Below, piece by piece: positions 2,814 to 15,793 of a DNA stretch of 54,119 nt. The position numbers were made by a program, and so were the translations under genes. Below the pieces are notes generated by a model that was given only the letters and a program-made list of their open reading frames with translations, did not search any database and was not told the DNA's origin. Where the stretch lies: NCBI GenBank assembly GCA_028687045.1, contig JAQUAW010000004.1:1-54119 (forward strand), written 5' to 3'. The stretch comes from Patescibacteria group bacterium (GTDB taxonomy: Bacteria > Patescibacteriota > Patescibacteriia > Magasanikbacterales > UBA922). Within the stretch, counting starts at the first letter, position 1. Each line of letters begins with the position of its first letter.

Positions 2814-3980
2814 ATGTTAAATCTTCTTGAAAAAGAACTTCAACAAACATATCAAGAAATAATAGCCATAAAAAAAGATGTAGGTGATGCTATGAATCTA
2901 TTTCGTGAAGCACAAATACGTACAACTGATAGTAAAGGTGGTACTGTTTCTAATTATCAATATTTTATATATCCTTTCAAAGGTTTTACTCTAGCTAATC
3001 AAGGAATTTATAACACCTTGGCAAAATATTTAGCAGAAATGATACCAAAAGATAACGAAGTCATCCTGTCTATAGAATCTGATGGTATAGGCATTGCCAC
3101 TTTGGTAGCTGCACAATTACGACTTCCTTTGATTATTGCCAAAACATTTCATTATGATATAGAATGTGTTGCTTTTTCACAACAAACAGGCTATTACGAA
3201 CGTACAATGTATATGAGTAAAGCTCTAAAAAATAAAAAAATTGCTATTGTAGACTGTATGGCTTCAACTGGAGGAACTATTGTAAATATGGTAAAAGCAG
3301 TTGAGTCAATAAGCTCAGATACAAAAATTACAGGCATTTATTGTGTAAATGATAAAAGTAATTATAGACAAAAAAATGATATTTTTAAAAAATATGATTA
3401 TTCCTACCTTTTTGATACTTATATAGAAAATAATAAAGTAATTTGTAGTATGTCTAGTCGTTTCAAAGATGTTTTTTGGGCAGATGTAAACCATAGATTT
3501 TATAATATTACCGAACGCTTGGCTGAAGATGTTTCCAATAAATCCAGACACGGCTATGGTGTAGGAGCCACATTGGTAAATTCAGAAACTTTCGAAATTT
3601 CTGCTTGGGGATACAGACGTGGACATGTTCATGCTGAACAAGATGCTTTGTCTATGCTAAAAAATAATACTCCTGATTGGGAAGAACACGAATACATGCT
3701 TTATTGTACAATGGAACCATGTACCTATCGTAATGGTAAATATACACCATGTTCACATCTTATATCTGATATGCCACAACTAAAATGGGTTATCATTGGT
3801 CAAAAAGATGTAGCTGACAACAAAATTTGTGGTAACGGTATTCAGTATTTAGTAGAAAATGGTAAAAACATTAGACTAATGGCAACCAATGAAAAATTTT
3901 ATGCCAACCAAAATATTTTTCAAGAAACAAAAATAGAAAATGAAGAAATGATGTTGGAACCAGGACTTTCTTTTGCTTAA
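2814..3980 (+). CDS. Phosphoribosyltransferase-like domain fused to a RibD/CMP-dCMP-type zinc deaminase domain
   Basis: N-terminal KIAIVDCMASTGGTIVNMVKA (PRPP-loop-like); C-terminal HAEQDAL and TMEPCTYRNGKYTPCSHL zinc deaminase motifs. Confidence 0.8.
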   Translation: MLNLLEKELQQTYQEIIAIKKDVGDAMNLFREAQIRTTDSKGGTVSNYQYFIYPFKGFTLANQGIYNTLAKYLAEMIPKDNEVILSIESDGIGIATLVAAQLRLPLIIAKTFHYDIECVAFSQQTGYYERTMYMSKALKNKKIAIVDCMASTGGTIVNMVKAVESISSDTKITGIYCVNDKSNYRQKNDIFKKYDYSYLFDTYIENNKVICSMSSRFKDVFWADVNHRFYNITERLAEDVSNKSRHGYGVGATLVNSETFEISAWGYRRGHVHAEQDALSMLKNNTPDWEEHEYMLYCTMEPCTYRNGKYTPCSHLISDMPQLKWVIIGQKDVADNKICGNGIQYLVENGKNIRLMATNEKFYANQNIFQETKIENEEMMLEPGLSFA

Positions 3981-6401: not shown

Positions 6402-7940
6402 TTATCCTAGTTTTTCTTTCAGTTTTTCCTCCACCACTTTCACATCCGCACTTCCTTCACTTGCTTTCATCACCATACCAATCAAAAACTTAATAACTGT
6501 TTCTTTGCCGGCTTTGACTTGAGCAACTTGGTCTGGATAATTTGTGATTACAGCATCAACAAGACTTTCAATCTGACCACTATCAGAAACTTGTCCCCAA
6601 CCTTTTTCTTCCAAAATATGTGTTGGATCTTTGTCTACATCAAGACCAACCATAATCAATAAAATTTTCAAAGCATTGGTACCATTGACTTTGTTGTTGT
6701 AGATAAGAGCAACAAGCTCAGCAAAATTCTCAGGAGAAAATTTGACATCAGTAATATCCATATTTTTTTCTTTGAGAATTCCCAAGAGTTTACTCGTAAT
6801 CCAACTACCCGCTAAACGACTAATTTTTTGAGGAAGATTTTCGGCTTTATTTTCTGACTCTGGCATAGAATCCAACCATTCAACAAGATCACTCATCACA
6901 GCTTCAGTAAAATAAGAAAGTTCTTTACTGTCTGTCAAAATTTTGGCATCTGAATATGACAAATAATATTCTTCACGAAAACGCAATCTCTTTTGAGAAG
7001 GCAACTCTGGCAAAGAAACAATACCAGCAATTTTTAGAGGATGAAAAGGTGGTATATCTGGATCTGGAAAATAACGATAATCAGCAGCATTTTCTTTGGT
7101 ACGTTGCATCACAGTTTCTTGTTTGTTATCATCCCAACCACGAGTCTGCTGTACCCAAGTTTCGCCTTTTTCGATCATCGCTGTTTGTCTTTTGATTTCA
7201 AAATCAATACCACGTTCAACAGCTTTGAAAGAATTTAGATTTTTGAGTTCAACTTTATTATTTAGTTTTGCACCGTTTAGAGGTTTCACTACACCATCAA
7301 TAATCTCAAAACTACCAACTTCTTGCACAGAAATATTGGCTTCACAGCGCATCTGACCCTTTTCCATATCAGCATCACTCACACCCAAATAACGCACAAT
7401 ATTGCGTAATTCTTGACAATAAGTTTTGGCTTCAAGAGCTGATTTGAAATCTGGATCAGTCACAATCTCAACCAAAGGCACTCCAGAACGATTGAAATCG
7501 ACGAGAGTACTACCATCTTCACCATGATTTAGTCTGGCAGTGTCTTCTTCAAGATGTGCACGTGTAATACCAATTTTGGCAGTGTCACGAATAGGATTTT
7601 CTCCTATAAAATCTAACTCAATAAAGCCATGCTCAGCAATTGGCTCTTCATATTGAGAAATCTGATAACCTTTTGGTAAATCTGGATAAAAATAATGCTT
7701 ACGATCAAACTTGGAAAATTCCAAAATATGACAATTTAGCGCTTTTCCAACCATAACTGTCCAGGCAATTGCTTTTTTATTAGGTACTGGCAAAGTACCA
7801 GGATGAGCCAAACAAATTTCGCAAATATTCTTATTTGGAGTATCAATATTAGGATTATTTGGGCACGAACAAAACATCTTGGAGTCAGTCTTTAGCTCCA
7901 CATGTACTTCCATACCAATAATTGGGACGTATTGTTTCAT
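6402..7940 (-). CDS. gatB: Asp-tRNA(Asn)/Glu-tRNA(Gln) amidotransferase subunit B
   Basis: IGMEVHVEL start, KFDRKHYFYPDLPKGYQISQ, C-terminal YqeY-like domain. Confidence 0.97.
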   Translation of the reverse strand: MKQYVPIIGMEVHVELKTDSKMFCSCPNNPNIDTPNKNICEICLAHPGTLPVPNKKAIAWTVMVGKALNCHILEFSKFDRKHYFYPDLPKGYQISQYEEPIAEHGFIELDFIGENPIRDTAKIGITRAHLEEDTARLNHGEDGSTLVDFNRSGVPLVEIVTDPDFKSALEAKTYCQELRNIVRYLGVSDADMEKGQMRCEANISVQEVGSFEIIDGVVKPLNGAKLNNKVELKNLNSFKAVERGIDFEIKRQTAMIEKGETWVQQTRGWDDNKQETVMQRTKENAADYRYFPDPDIPPFHPLKIAGIVSLPELPSQKRLRFREEYYLSYSDAKILTDSKELSYFTEAVMSDLVEWLDSMPESENKAENLPQKISRLAGSWITSKLLGILKEKNMDITDVKFSPENFAELVALIYNNKVNGTNALKILLIMVGLDVDKDPTHILEEKGWGQVSDSGQIESLVDAVITNYPDQVAQVKAGKETVIKFLIGMVMKASEGSADVKVVEEKLKEKLG

Positions 7941-8940: not shown

Positions 8941-9528
8941 TTAAATTAATTTTTTTATTTCTTCCCATAGTATAACATGAATTTCGAGAATTGTTAAATT
9001 AGCATTTATCTTTTTCCAACCCAATTCTTCACCTATTTTCAAATGAGCCTGTCTAACTTTTTCTAACAGTTCTTCATCAGTTTCATGCTTATGATTTTTT
9101 TCAGTACTTTCAGTAAAACGTTTACCATCAAAAAGAAAATCAATATCTTCTTTTAATAAATGTGAATTAATTAATTTCAAATATTCTTCATCCACTCCAG
9201 CACCAATCCCCCAACAAATTCCCGTGCCAGTGTAATCTTCGGCAATAATATTTATTCCGCTTTCTAACTTCTCTTTCAAAGTTGTTTCATATTGTGTACG
9301 ATTGAGAGCATAAATTGTTTGAATTTCACGAGGAGTCAAACTAAATTTGTTTCCCTCACGCAAATAATTATTGAGAATTTTTCCAGATGGTTCCAAATCA
9401 TAAACAGGATATTTCATATACTCTGCTTTATATCCTTCTGCTTGTAATTTTTCAACCAACATTTTGGCTTGAGTAGTTTTGCCCAAATTATTTATTCCAT
9501 GCAATACAACGAATATTCCTTTTGACAT
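8941..9528 (-). CDS. Divergent thymidylate kinase-like protein
   Basis: P-loop GINNLGKTTQ; Tmk-like length and layout; DR(Y/H) motif replaced by EDY. Confidence 0.8.
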   Translation of the reverse strand: MSKGIFVVLHGINNLGKTTQAKMLVEKLQAEGYKAEYMKYPVYDLEPSGKILNNYLREGNKFSLTPREIQTIYALNRTQYETTLKEKLESGINIIAEDYTGTGICWGIGAGVDEEYLKLINSHLLKEDIDFLFDGKRFTESTEKNHKHETDEELLEKVRQAHLKIGEELGWKKINANLTILEIHVILWEEIKKLI

Positions 9529-9638: not shown

Positions 9639-10112
9639 TTACAGACTCCTAATATATCTCACAAAACTAAACCCCTCAAAATCTTCACGTTCAACCTCTT
9701 CCCAAACTTTTTTATTTATTTCTGGAAAAAAAACATCGCCATCAAATGTCTTGTGAACTTCGGTAATATATAGTTTATCAGCGATATCAATTGTTTGTGC
9801 ATAAATACTTGCTCCACCAATTACAAAAACATTTTCATTTTTATACTTTTCTAAAGCTTCTTCAATACTAAAATATTTTTCTACATTTTCTGGCACAGAA
9901 TAATTTTCATCACGAGTAATCACAATATTTTTTCTATTTGGCAATGGACGAAATTTTTCGGGAATTGATTCCCAAGTATTACGTCCCATAAGAACAATAC
10001 TTCCACTAGTAATTTCTTTGAAGTGTTTCATGTCTTCTTTGATATTCCAAAGCAAAGCATTGTCTTTGCCAATGCAATTGTTTTCTGAAATAGCGGCTAT
10101 GAGTGAGAGCAT
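9639..10112 (-). CDS. folA: Dihydrofolate reductase
   Basis: LIAAISENNCIGKDNALLW, MGRNTWESIP, VIGGASIYAQ. Confidence 0.96.
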   Translation of the reverse strand: MLSLIAAISENNCIGKDNALLWNIKEDMKHFKEITSGSIVLMGRNTWESIPEKFRPLPNRKNIVITRDENYSVPENVEKYFSIEEALEKYKNENVFVIGGASIYAQTIDIADKLYITEVHKTFDGDVFFPEINKKVWEEVEREDFEGFSFVRYIRSL

Positions 10113-10132: not shown

Positions 10133-10567
10133 TTAAAATTTACCAGTACTCCCAAACCCTCCCCTATCATTTTCTTCCATTTTTTCTACTTCTACAAAAT
10201 TACCATTATCAATACGCATAAACATACCTTGGGCGATACGTTCACCTTTTTCTACAACCACTTCTTCATCTGTAAAATTGTAAACTGATAATAATATTTC
10301 ATCATTTTCACCACAATAATCTCGATCAATAGTACCAACACCATTTGCAAGCATCAGACCCTTTTTCTTAGCCAAACTAGAGCGTGCAGACAAAATAAGT
10401 CCATGACTTTCTGGTGTTTTAATAATGAAATTACTTGGCAAAAGTGCCAAAGATTTTGGCGCAATTTTCATTTCCTCACGAGAATACATATCAAAAGCAA
10501 TAGAGCCTTGCGTTTTGTATTCTGGTAGAGGTAAACTTTTGTCTACGCGTTTAATTTTTATGTCCAT
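10133..10567 (-). CDS. dut: dUTPase
   Basis: SARSSLAKKKGLMLANGVGTIDRDYCGEN and C-terminal GGFGSTGKF motif. Confidence 0.93.
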   Translation of the reverse strand: MDIKIKRVDKSLPLPEYKTQGSIAFDMYSREEMKIAPKSLALLPSNFIIKTPESHGLILSARSSLAKKKGLMLANGVGTIDRDYCGENDEILLSVYNFTDEEVVVEKGERIAQGMFMRIDNGNFVEVEKMEENDRGGFGSTGKF

Positions 10568-11114
10568 ATTTTTTTACAATTTCATCTACTTGTTTGTATA
10601 AATCTTCAAGACTACCATTATTATCAATTAATTCCTCTGCCTGATTAGCGACTTCCTCAATAGTAATTTCTGTTGATCTTTTGTGATCTTCCAAAAATTG
10701 TTCATAAGTTTTGCTATTATCATCAGCTTTGTCTCCACGTCCAACAAGACGTTCATAGCGAATTTTTGGATCAGCAAAAATTTTGACAAGAATAAATCCT
10801 GGGATTTCTTTTAAATATTTTATATCAGCAGGACGACGAACATTAGAAATAGAAATAATTTCATGTTCATCCTTTTCTACATCGCGAGCCATAGTCTTGG
10901 CCAAAATATCTTCTCCAAAATATTCACGCATGGCTTCAGAAATTTTTATATAATTGTCTCTGTTTTTTTCAATGTGATATCTATTCAAAACATCTCCTAA
11001 CATACCACTAAAACTATAATTTTTTCCATTATATTTTTCTTCAATATAATTGGCAGCAGTATCTTTGCCACTTGCCATTTGTCCAACAAATCCTAAGATT
11101 ATTTTATTTAACAT
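10551..11114 (-). CDS. P-loop (deoxy)nucleoside monophosphate kinase-like / dephospho-CoA kinase-like protein
   Basis: GFVGQMASGKDTAANYIEEKY Walker A. Confidence 0.65.
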   Translation of the reverse strand: MLNKIILGFVGQMASGKDTAANYIEEKYNGKNYSFSGMLGDVLNRYHIEKNRDNYIKISEAMREYFGEDILAKTMARDVEKDEHEIISISNVRRPADIKYLKEIPGFILVKIFADPKIRYERLVGRGDKADDNSKTYEQFLEDHKRSTEITIEEVANQAEELIDNNGSLEDLYKQVDEIVKKYGHKN

Positions 11115-11625
11115 ATTGTTTTATTTTTAAAATATTTTCCTCAAGATTTAAAGCCGTATCTATTAAATAATAATCAATTTTTAAATTTTCTAAAATATTT
11201 AGATATGAATCTGGAAAATCTCTTTCTAGACGAGCTTCCAATTTTACAACGTCCATATCTCTACTTCTTTTTAAAGCACGCTCTTTACAGACTTCATTAG
11301 GGGCAACACACAGAAAGATTGTTACTCTGTAGTCGTCATTAATTTTATTTAATTCTTGCAAGTTATACCCTGTATGACTAGTCCCTAATTCAAGTATAAT
11401 CTGTCCTTTATCTTTTAAATAAGTTTCCCGCATTTTTTCATACATGTCTTGGTAACCTAAAATTGTTTTCTCTTCTGGTACAGCAGAACTATTACCATTC
11501 CCATAGGCTAAAACAAAAGGTAACACATCAACCACAAAATCATTTGGAAAAATATTTTTTATTAGAGTACTTTTACCTACACCAGGTTTACCCACAAACA
11601 CAAACAAATTATTGTCGTCTATCAT
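11104..11625 (-). CDS. P-loop kinase-like NTPase
   Basis: FVGKPGVGKSTLIKNIF Walker A. Confidence 0.6.
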   Translation of the reverse strand: MIDDNNLFVFVGKPGVGKSTLIKNIFPNDFVVDVLPFVLAYGNGNSSAVPEEKTILGYQDMYEKMRETYLKDKGQIILELGTSHTGYNLQELNKINDDYRVTIFLCVAPNEVCKERALKRSRDMDVVKLEARLERDFPDSYLNILENLKIDYYLIDTALNLEENILKIKQYVK

Positions 11626-11643: not shown

Positions 11644-12174
11644 CTAAATTTTCCAAATAGTATCTTTAGGAGTGACACGTTCATTATTTTTTGTTTTCTT
11701 TTCTAATTCTTTTTGTAGAGCGAGCCTTGGTTCACGACAAAAAATGTTTTCTGCATTTTCAAGTAAATAAACATTTTTTATACCATGTTTAATTATACTG
11801 TCCCAACATTTTTTACAACACCACCAATGACCAAACAAATACAAATCAGCTTGCCCAGGATCATTATTGTTAGCAATAGCATTGTTTACGGCACCCAATT
11901 CAGAGTGACCATTTTGTTGACAAATTTCTTTACAAAAATGATATCCTTCACCAGTGGGACAATTGTTTTGTACACGTGGACAGAGAGGTTGCCATTTACC
12001 TTCATTACTTGCACGACCAATAATTTTTTCATCTTTTACCACCACCGCTCCAGTTGGCCACCACGAACATCCTGATAGTTCGTTTGCAATTTTTTGTGCT
12101 TCTTGCATCCATTTATTATCGAGAGGAACGTACAATATTTGTTTGTTTTCAGGTAAATAAGGATATTTTATCAT
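11644..12174 (-). CDS. Cytidine/deoxycytidylate deaminase family protein
   Basis: CPR...C...C...GHSELGAV and CCKKCWDSIIKHGIKNVY zinc motifs. Confidence 0.82.
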   Translation of the reverse strand: MIKYPYLPENKQILYVPLDNKWMQEAQKIANELSGCSWWPTGAVVVKDEKIIGRASNEGKWQPLCPRVQNNCPTGEGYHFCKEICQQNGHSELGAVNNAIANNNDPGQADLYLFGHWWCCKKCWDSIIKHGIKNVYLLENAENIFCREPRLALQKELEKKTKNNERVTPKDTIWKI

Positions 12175-12854
12175 ACAGGATTCTTTGTAATATCATCTTG
12201 TATAGGAAACTGTTGTTTCAATTGTTCTACGTTCCCCTGTTTCAACAATTCTGTCTCTTCTTGATGGTCAGGTTTGCTTTCAAGACTGTATGGAGTTGCT
12301 GTATTATATTTTGAATCTTGAAGACCATGTTTTGCAGCGTCCTCTTTGGAAATTTCTTGTTTCAAATTATAAAAGACGATCTGACAAATTCTTTCACCTG
12401 GATAAATTTTCAAAGCATGGTGTGTATTATTGACCATTGGGATAATTAAGTTTCCAGAATAAAAAGGATCAATAACACCACTTTCAATAGAAAGACCACG
12501 TCGTGAGCTTGAACTTCGTGGATATAAAATACCCATAATAAGTCCCGTGTTTATTGAAATTTTTTCTAGTGTAGAAGCAACTATAGATTCACCTGGCAAT
12601 ATTTCAAAATACTGACCTGGTTTAAGCTTAATAAGTTGATAATTTTCAGAAAGATTGTCAGTATCAAAATAATCAGCCACAACAGCAGATCTTCCTTTTT
12701 CATCAAATTTCCAAGTTTTTGGTATATAAAAACTCCAACCAAGACGAATATCTACAGCAGCTGGTTGCATTTGAAATGCATCTAGCTCTGGAGAAAAAAT
12801 TATTTTGTTATTTTTGAACTCTTCTATTATGTTGTATTTAGTAAGTATTGACAT
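12171..12854 (-). CDS. dcd: dCTP deaminase / dUTPase-superfamily protein
   Basis: QPAAVDIRLG, YPRSSSSRRGLSIESGVIDPFYSGNL, GERICQIVF. Confidence 0.88.
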   Translation of the reverse strand: MSILTKYNIIEEFKNNKIIFSPELDAFQMQPAAVDIRLGWSFYIPKTWKFDEKGRSAVVADYFDTDNLSENYQLIKLKPGQYFEILPGESIVASTLEKISINTGLIMGILYPRSSSSRRGLSIESGVIDPFYSGNLIIPMVNNTHHALKIYPGERICQIVFYNLKQEISKEDAAKHGLQDSKYNTATPYSLESKPDHQEETELLKQGNVEQLKQQFPIQDDITKNPV

Positions 12855-12880: not shown

Positions 12881-13711
12881 TTAAAAAACAATCTTCATGC
12901 CTTTTACAGGTCCTTGGGGTTTATATTGTTTATCAATTTTATCAAAAATTTCTTGAACTAATGTCTCGTCTCCTTTTTCAGCACGATCAAAATAATCTGG
13001 TTGCCCATGTAAATGAATTGTAGGATGTTCATTACTTCTCTCTACAACTTCCCATGCTTGTTTGTAATGAATATCATAAATATGAGCATTACTAATAGTG
13101 TATGTGAGTTTTCCAGGCTGAACCCCAAGTTTTGCAGCTAATATAACTTGCAAAAGTGCAGCTCCAGCCACATCATGTGGGCACCCCAACATCATATCAT
13201 TTGATCTGACTACATTATGAATATGTAATTTATTACCAATAATATTTGCAGTAAAAGTATAAGGACAAGGAACATTCTTTTTTGTATTAGGGTTACCAAG
13301 ACCATCTTCTCGTGGATCCCAAGTTACAATAACCCCATGTCGTGAACCAGGTTGTTCTGTGAGATGTTTTACCAAAAGTCCCAGCTGATCTCTATCAAAT
13401 GAATGACGCCATCGATAACCATATGCGGCGGGAATAGTGCCATCGTCCTCAGTAAAATCCTCCCAAATTTTGGTAAACTTATTTACAAAATCATCCGGAT
13501 ATTTACTCCCCATAATGAACCAAATCTGTTCAGCTATACATATTTTTAAAGGAATTTTACGAAGTGTGAGAAGTGGGAATCCGTTGTCTAATTCAAATGT
13601 TAAGCCTGGTATAATTTTTGTATAATGTCCTGTCCTTTCATTGTATTCTTCAAATCCCTCATTTAATATCTTTAATATTGCACTTTTATATTGTTCGTCA
13701 AATTGAGTCAT
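12881..13711 (-). CDS. thyA: Thymidylate synthase / dCMP (hydroxy)methylase family protein with Asp at the pyrimidine-specificity position
   Basis: VPCPYTFTANI, RSNDMMLGCPHDVAGAALL, NAHIYDIH; aligns without gaps to recalled E. coli ThyA core, with N177 replaced by D. Confidence 0.92.
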   Translation of the reverse strand: MTQFDEQYKSAILKILNEGFEEYNERTGHYTKIIPGLTFELDNGFPLLTLRKIPLKICIAEQIWFIMGSKYPDDFVNKFTKIWEDFTEDDGTIPAAYGYRWRHSFDRDQLGLLVKHLTEQPGSRHGVIVTWDPREDGLGNPNTKKNVPCPYTFTANIIGNKLHIHNVVRSNDMMLGCPHDVAGAALLQVILAAKLGVQPGKLTYTISNAHIYDIHYKQAWEVVERSNEHPTIHLHGQPDYFDRAEKGDETLVQEIFDKIDKQYKPQGPVKGMKIVF

Positions 13712-14547: not shown

Positions 14548-14814
14548 ATGATTTCAAAAAATATTTTATATATATTACAAAGCTTATCCCACAAGGATAA
14601 GTTTTATGTTGGAATAACAAATAGAGAAAGAGAAAGACTTGATGAACATAATAGAGGACAAACCTTTTCTACAAAAAAATATTTACCATGGAAAGTTATT
14701 TATATGGAAGAATTTGAAACTAAGTCTCAAGCTATGAAACGTGAAACCTATTTAAAAAGCATTAATGGTTATAAAGAAAAATTAATTATAATTGATAAAC
14801 ATAGAAAAAAGTAG
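14548..14814 (+). CDS. GIY-YIG nuclease domain protein
   Basis: LYILQSLSHKDKFYVGITNRERERLDEHNRGQ...STKKYLPWKVIYMEEFETKSQAMKRE; stop codon lies in the following tRNA-like sequence. Confidence 0.9.
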   Translation: MISKNILYILQSLSHKDKFYVGITNRERERLDEHNRGQTFSTKKYLPWKVIYMEEFETKSQAMKRETYLKSINGYKEKLIIIDKHRKK

Positions 14815-14923: not shown

Positions 14924-15793
14924 CTAGATCTGTGCAATCAGTGTCTTCCAATCACTCACAAACTTCTCCAAACCAGCATCAGTCAAATCATGCTCTACAT
15001 TATAATCAATAAAATTTTTATCTAAATCAATATTTTTAAATTCAATATCTTTCATTTCTTTTTTATCATAAACAAAATCACTACCAGGCAATTCCAAATC
15101 ACGTTTCCACCATTCTTCCAAAATTTTTAGAGGAGCAGTAATAATATCTACTTCCAAAGCCAAACAAGCTACAAAGTGTTCATAAGTTCTAACACTCGCA
15201 GCCAATATTTCTACATGACCACCACCTTTACTATATAATTTTTGAATATTTTCTATAATACTCATACCATTTAGACCTTTATCATCAAGCCTACCAATAA
15301 AAGGAGAAATAAATATATCACCTTTTTTTGCACCGTTACTCATATTATATACAGCAGCTGATTGCTCTTCAGAAAAACACAAAGTCATATTAACTTTTAT
15401 ACCTTCTTTTAGCAAATCATGCTCAGCTTGTAATCCATTTTCAGTAATAGGAAGTTTGATATGCGCATTTGGAATCCAAGTATTCATGATTCTGGCTTGC
15501 TCCAACATTTTTTCTTTGCTCGTATTTTTGTCAGCATAGACTTCTATTGAGATTGAACCTTCTGGAATCATGACACGAATTTCTTCTATTACACTTTTAT
15601 AAAAAGCATTTACTTCTTCAGAAGATAACTTTTCTCCTGCAGAAAGTTTTGCTTGCAATTCTGGATTTTTGGCAATAAGACTTGGATTCGTAGTTTGTCC
15701 ATCTAGAAAACCAAGCAATTTTATTGCTTCTCTTGTTTCAACTGGATTACCACTGTCAAGAAATATTTTTGTTTTGAGATTTTGTGGTCGCAT
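14924..15793 (-). CDS. tal: Transaldolase family protein
   Basis: KIFLDSGNPVETREAI, GQTTNPSLIAK, INMTLCFS-like and ISPFIGRLDD motifs. Confidence 0.9.
   Translation of the reverse strand: MRPQNLKTKIFLDSGNPVETREAIKLLGFLDGQTTNPSLIAKNPELQAKLSAGEKLSSEEVNAFYKSVIEEIRVMIPEGSISIEVYADKNTSKEKMLEQARIMNTWIPNAHIKLPITENGLQAEHDLLKEGIKVNMTLCFSEEQSAAVYNMSNGAKKGDIFISPFIGRLDDKGLNGMSIIENIQKLYSKGGGHVEILAASVRTYEHFVACLALEVDIITAPLKILEEWWKRDLELPGSDFVYDKKEMKDIEFKNIDLDKNFIDYNVEHDLTDAGLEKFVSDWKTLIAQI

Follow-up and report, generated by a model that had tools for sequence, protein, structure and literature searches.

A gene cassette on a 54,119-nucleotide stretch of DNA from a Patescibacteria group bacterium (contig JAQUAW010000004.1 of assembly GCA_028687045.1; hereafter the window) probably encodes a thymidylate route that bypasses uracil nucleotides, leading from dCTP through dCMP and 5-methyl-dCMP to dTMP. 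Judging from residues and homology, a dCTP-deaminase-fold protein which keeps the fold and the hydrolytic Asp but has lost the deaminase Glu (DCD-P) would hydrolyse dCTP to dCMP; a ThyA-fold enzyme (TSD) would then methylate dCMP at C5 with methylene-tetrahydrofolate, yielding 5-methyl-dCMP and dihydrofolate by an Asp177/Pro147 chemistry like that of N177D mutants and the phage Xp12 group; and a dCMP-deaminase-like protein (DEAM) would convert 5-methyl-dCMP to dTMP by deamination. The thymidylate kinase and dihydrofolate reductase (DHFR) of the same operon would complete dTTP synthesis and recycle the folate, and a retained dUTPase would serve sanitation. The original prediction had left two outcomes for the ThyA homologue, a modified cytosine nucleotide or 5-methyl-dCMP that the neighbouring deaminase turns into dTMP, and comparative genomics appears to favour the second: canonical ThyA and ThyX were not found in the clade genomes searched, the cassette is swapped in place in two genera, the adjacent DCD lacks the deaminase Glu throughout and the dCMP-deaminase-like protein accompanies TSD.

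TSD (12881..13711, minus strand), a putative dCMP C5-methyltransferase, is encoded by an intact ORF of 276 aa that matches PF00303 with E=8.8e-50. It had been described as a ThyA homologue with Asp in place of the pyrimidine-specifying Asn, and this is what the Pfam match and an alignment with E. coli ThyA and T4 gp42 bear out, since Asp180 of TSD, specified by the GAT codon at 13172..13174 on the minus strand, corresponds to Asn177 of E. coli ThyA (whose numbering we use below). The catalytic Cys and the His and Tyr that had been claimed as kept are indeed present (Cys146, His207 and Tyr209), as are Glu58, Trp80, Tyr94, Ser167 and Asp169. The same claim for the phosphate-binding Arg residues holds for Arg126 and Arg166, but Arg127 has become His, so one of these Arg residues is lost. 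Further active-site substitutions on which the original prediction was silent are His147 to Pro, Trp83 to Phe, Phe176 to His and Ser180 to Gly, the Pro at position 147 being Pro150 of TSD, directly after its catalytic Cys149 (13262..13267, minus strand). When compared with the canonical ThyAs of E. coli and of Patescibacteria, TSD has the same fold, the same catalytic Cys, most of the substrate residues and an identical operon position with DHFR and thymidylate kinase as neighbours, but it is only 27-28% identical to them, and Asn177, His147, Arg127 and Trp83 are all altered.

TSD is a member of an old clade in Patescibacteria. With a search profile built from five members of the Asp177 clade and applied to 380 genomes of the phylum (metagenome-assembled as far as their titles show), we found the Asp177 type in 15, with a clear gap between scores of at least 344 bits and of at most 148. 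It also occurs at 17 named loci whose labels assign them to Magasanikbacteria, Uhrbacteria, Falkowbacteria, Saccharibacteria and other Parcubacteria. The 30 distinct clade sequences all carry Asp177, Phe83, His176 and His or Gln at 127, and their position 147 is never His (27 Pro, 2 Val and 1 Leu), whereas Asn177 and His147 are found together in 45 of 45 canonical patescibacterial ThyAs; for Asp177 the difference of 30/30 against 0/45 gives a Fisher p of about 1e-21, kinship ignored. The Asp of TSD is not a product of chance or sequencing error, since the identical state recurs in every clade member, and the suspicion that Asp might be common among thymidylate synthases of CPR bacteria came to nothing, all 45 canonical sequences having Asn. 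In a tree from which the mistranslated row V45iii, from an unannotated phage, had been left out, canonical ThyA stood apart from the Asp177 proteins, whether from bacteria, from phages or from T4, with support of 98/84; the branching inside the Asp177 half is weakly supported and the gp42 branch is too long to place. No member of the Asp177 clade was found among the viral contigs of IMG/VR.

Positions 177 and 147 were those most associated with cytosine-modified DNA in a metagenome study, and for N177D mutants a change of substrate to dCMP, with production of 5-methyl-dCMP, has been reported (PMC8670742). As far as active-site residues can tell, dCMP is very probably the substrate of TSD. It is unlikely that TSD is instead a divergent ordinary thymidylate synthase acting on dUMP, with its other active-site changes offsetting Asp177 and DEAM supplying dUMP from dCMP, even though it is the only ThyA-fold protein in these genomes fit to serve as thymidylate synthase, adjoins DHFR and thymidylate kinase genes and narrowly passes the cut-off of the thymidylate synthase equivalog TIGR03284 (109.7 bits, cut-off 108.35). 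All 30 clade sequences have lost both Asn177 and His147, which every canonical neighbour keeps, the N177D mutants reportedly turn to dCMP, and the congener with a canonical ThyA employs an ordinary dCMP deaminase, not DEAM; moreover, activity on dUMP would account neither for the coupled loss of the DCD Glu nor for the disappearance of dUTPase from several genomes.

The gene next to TSD encodes DCD-P (12171..12854, minus strand), a putative pyrophosphohydrolase of dCTP and perhaps also of dUTP. The best matches of its predicted fold are dCTP deaminases, including the E138A variant of E. coli Dcd with dCTP bound, and it shares with dCTP deaminases and bifunctional DCD-DUT enzymes the fold, the Arg and Ser residues of the substrate site and the hydrolytic Asp of the dUTPase superfamily (Asp129 in the window, kept in nearly all members). 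What sets it apart from those enzymes is that the catalytic Glu, Glu138 in E. coli Dcd, is replaced by Pro (Pro139 in the window, codon at 12438..12440, minus strand) in all 26 DCD-P partners, and Glu is retained in 8 of 8 DCDs of canonical genomes. DCD-P accompanies the clade in 17 of 18 genomes, the exception being G053 (84% complete), and is present in none of 46 canonical ones. Hydrolysis of dCTP to dCMP by DCD-P is the least certain step of the route, and one that we hold to be somewhat better than evenly likely.

DEAM (11644..12174, minus strand) belongs to the dCMP-deaminase family by its zinc site (H90xE92 and C120xxC123) and its fold. It is nearest to dCMP deaminases both by profile and by fold, and it was the profile that revealed this relation, a search of the PDB with the DEAM sequence alone having given no match. 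With dCMP deaminases of the ComEB/T4 Cd family it shares the zinc ligands, the catalytic Glu and the fold, but it forms a separate and distinctive subfamily marked by a GHWWCCxxCW motif and occurring with Asp177 enzymes, and it differs from the ordinary dCMP deaminase that the congener has. DEAM is present in 16 of 18 clade genomes, and canonical genomes give weak, family-level matches only; in G019, G345 and G368 it is the sole PF00383 deaminase found. In G357 (99% complete), TSD and DCD-P are present and no DEAM-type deaminase was recognised, the only PF00383 match looking like a cytidine deaminase. Known dCMP deaminases accept 5-methyl-dCMP (PMC12088426), and we consider it likely that this zinc deaminase acts on 5-methyl-dCMP to give dTMP. 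At other loci DEAM is fused to a nucleoside deoxyribosyltransferase domain (L051:9369-10283) or to a dNMP-kinase-like domain (L036:5242-6258, where two DEAM copies lie in a row). The window itself also holds, at 2814-3980 on the plus strand, an ORF that reads as a phosphoribosyltransferase-like portion followed by a PF00383-type deaminase domain.

The remaining genes of the cassette, all on the minus strand, encode a P-loop NTPase/kinase of the AAA_33 kind (11104..11625), a deoxynucleoside-monophosphate-kinase-like protein (10551..11114), a dUTPase that here probably serves dUTP sanitation (10133..10567), DHFR (9639..10112) and thymidylate kinase, which converts dTMP to dTDP (8941..9528). A DHFR is expected beside TSD because C5 methylation would yield dihydrofolate, and at most of the loci that we looked at, the neighbourhood includes a gene for a DHFR or a RibD/DHFR-like reductase. 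When we compared the window with G040, a genome of the same genus, the interval of G040 between the shared flanks proved to hold an ordinary dCMP deaminase, a dNMP kinase, a dUTPase, a ThyA with Asn177, a DHFR and a thymidylate kinase, so that TSD, DCD-P, DEAM and the P-loop kinase stand where G040 has its deaminase and ThyA. The flanking gatB (6402..7940, minus strand) and, on the opposite side, transaldolase (14924..15793, minus strand) are 92% and 85% identical between the two cassette types, and within the cassette identity to the congener is 91% for dUTPase, 80% for DHFR and 46% for the dNMP-kinase-like protein. The same was seen in a second genus, where G182 has a DCD with its Glu, a dUTPase and a ThyA with Asn177 at the cassette locus (no PF00383 deaminase was found in that genome), and G368 has TSD, a DCD with Pro and DEAM at the same place, most flanking genes being 80-94% identical. 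Since in both genera the cassette occupies the very site that the usual uracil route holds in a congener, it has been swapped in place. Between the cassette and the transaldolase flank of the window, a small GIY-YIG protein (14548-14814, plus strand) is encoded next to three tRNA genes. Elsewhere, thymidylate kinase is fused with dUTPase, both cassette genes, at L046:4310-5512, and with thymidine kinase at L042:12064-13392.

Among 18 clade genomes, dUTPase is clear in 8, represented by DCD-P only in 7 (G368 has none besides DCD-P), a weak second match in 2 and absent from 1. Because dUTPase remains in the window and in 8 of the 18, dUMP is probably still formed in the window's genome and in the dUTPase-bearing members of the clade.

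The search for a second thyA or thyX that had been proposed was carried out in the 18 clade genomes, 14 of which are at least 90% complete, and neither a canonical ThyA nor ThyX was found in any of them. Likewise, among the 380 genomes of the phylum none has both ThyA types and the 15 clade carriers show no second ThyA-like match, a mutual exclusion expected by chance at about 5e-5, kinship ignored. The one second PF00303 protein in the 18 genomes is a small, divergent protein of 200 aa in G000, the genome of the window (L041:5417-6079 on contig C40, the same as L002:1285-1887). We rejected it as a true synthase, as it has lost the Trp80, Arg126 and Arg127 positions and has Asp at the equivalent of 177, and the congener G040 has it beside a canonical ThyA. 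In G000 its gene adjoins a MazG-like gene and a nucleotidyltransferase gene, both missing from the surroundings of the G040 copy (L039:2708-3310). Thymidine kinase was not found in 12 of the 18 genomes; it is clear in 4 (G013, G014, G019 and G020), with a weak match in 2, so thymidine salvage is possible where the kinase occurs.

Two further clade genomes carry fusions of thymidylate kinase with ThyX-like domains near the cassette. At L056:5059-7371 a 770-aa protein beside the Asp177 cassette combines thymidylate kinase with two ThyX-like domains according to Pfam, and a similar protein stands beside the Asp177 cassette at L054:4136-6448. The RHR motif looks degenerate in both, and we did not accept them as ThyX. 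These fusions nevertheless count against the proposed route, together with the lack of DEAM in G357 and of DCD-P in G053, the dUTPase kept in the window and in 8 of the 18 clade genomes, and the thymidine kinases.

The closest known system is the thymidine-nucleotide route of phage Xp12. According to the passages of PMC12088426 and PMC8543423 that treat it, work of 1982 (Kuo et al.; Wang and Ehrlich) reported that Xp12 makes thymidine nucleotides via 5-methyl-dC nucleotides, with a dCMP methyltransferase and a 5-methyl-dCTP deaminase. Xp12 is classified in Bosavirus, Bradleyvirinae, and our comparison at the gene level rests on a relative from the same genus, DoCa10, in which the genes for a pyrophosphohydrolase, an Asp177/Pro147/Phe83 ThyA-fold enzyme, a dCMP-type deaminase and a DHFR-like protein stand in a row. 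The three residues are common to TSD, DoCa10 and other Bradleyvirinae phages, the methylation of dCMP and later deamination of a 5-methyl nucleotide proposed for the cassette match the Xp12 route, and the linked deaminase, DHFR and pyrophosphohydrolase are functional analogues. However, TSD and the DoCa10 enzyme share only about 35% identity, the phage pyrophosphohydrolase is of the MazG/PRA-PH kind and not homologous to the DCD-like protein of the cassette, and Xp12, a phage and not a cell, carries out the deamination on the triphosphate and has DNA filled with 5-methylcytosine.

This likeness raises the question of whether the product of the cassette is a C5-modified cytosine nucleotide destined for DNA, such as 5-methyl-dCTP, with dTMP as a by-product or obtained from salvage. 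Xp12 DNA has 5-methylcytosine in place of cytosine (PMC7653180), the nearest phage relatives of TSD belong to the subfamily and genus of Xp12, and the operon includes a nucleoside-monophosphate-kinase-like gene. We nonetheless regard this as improbable, because the 12 genomes that have neither thymidine kinase nor canonical ThyA or ThyX are left with the cassette exchanged for ThyA as their only source of dTMP, and the loss of cytosine to which full 5-methylcytosine should lead is not obvious, GC contents within a genus being 33.2 vs 33.7% and 45.8 vs 48.1%, which is a weak test.

More improbable still is a dCMP hydroxymethylase of the T4 gp42 type. Asp177 and the absence of His147 are shared by TSD and gp42, but the two are 23% identical, gp42 differs in product and setting, and its residues Thr147 and Val83 contrast with the Pro147 and Phe83 of the clade and of the relatives from the genus of Xp12. 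Hydroxymethylation yields no dihydrofolate, and the DHFR or RibD/DHFR-like reductase near most loci fits a reaction that does, i.e. methylation; no gene for modifying hydroxymethylcytosine was seen downstream. We judged hydroxymethylation weaker because of these DHFR-like neighbours and the residues of the Xp12 group. The CMP hydroxymethylases MilA and BcmA also have Asp at the cytosine-specifying position (PMC5175136). Unlike them, TSD retains the Ser that is characteristic of deoxyribo-specific enzymes, and its gene lies within a dNTP operon.

Methylation of dCMP followed by deamination thus remains our preferred reading. Its chemistry is already known from Xp12, and what is new is the cellular setting, the repurposed DCD and apparently its use as the main route to dTMP; we found no report in the open-access literature of a dCMP-methylation route to dTMP in a cell. 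We lean towards the wider proposal that in several patescibacterial lineages none of the thymidylate is made through dUMP, a DCD repurposed as dCTP pyrophosphohydrolase being used instead, and that this cassette and the canonical uracil-based one have been swapped repeatedly at one locus. In PMC5519681, dUMP is called an obligate precursor for dTTP made de novo, a rule to which a cellular lineage without this step would form an exception, with a phage-type route acting as core metabolism. If true, this would account for some clade genomes managing without dUTPase, would predict a changed sensitivity to inhibitors of the fluoro-dUMP type, and would mean that annotations of thymidylate synthase, dCTP deaminase and dCMP deaminase across Patescibacteria need correcting. 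The route is also relevant to the question of whether methylation of C, rather than of U, could have given rise to T. Among phages, genes for Asp177/Pro147 ThyA-fold proteins, annotated as thymidylate synthase and even as ThyX-like, stand beside dCMP deaminase and DHFR genes in siphophages that infect Xanthomonas, Rhodobacter and Roseobacter (L222, L176, L177 and L179), and these phages may share the Xp12 route.
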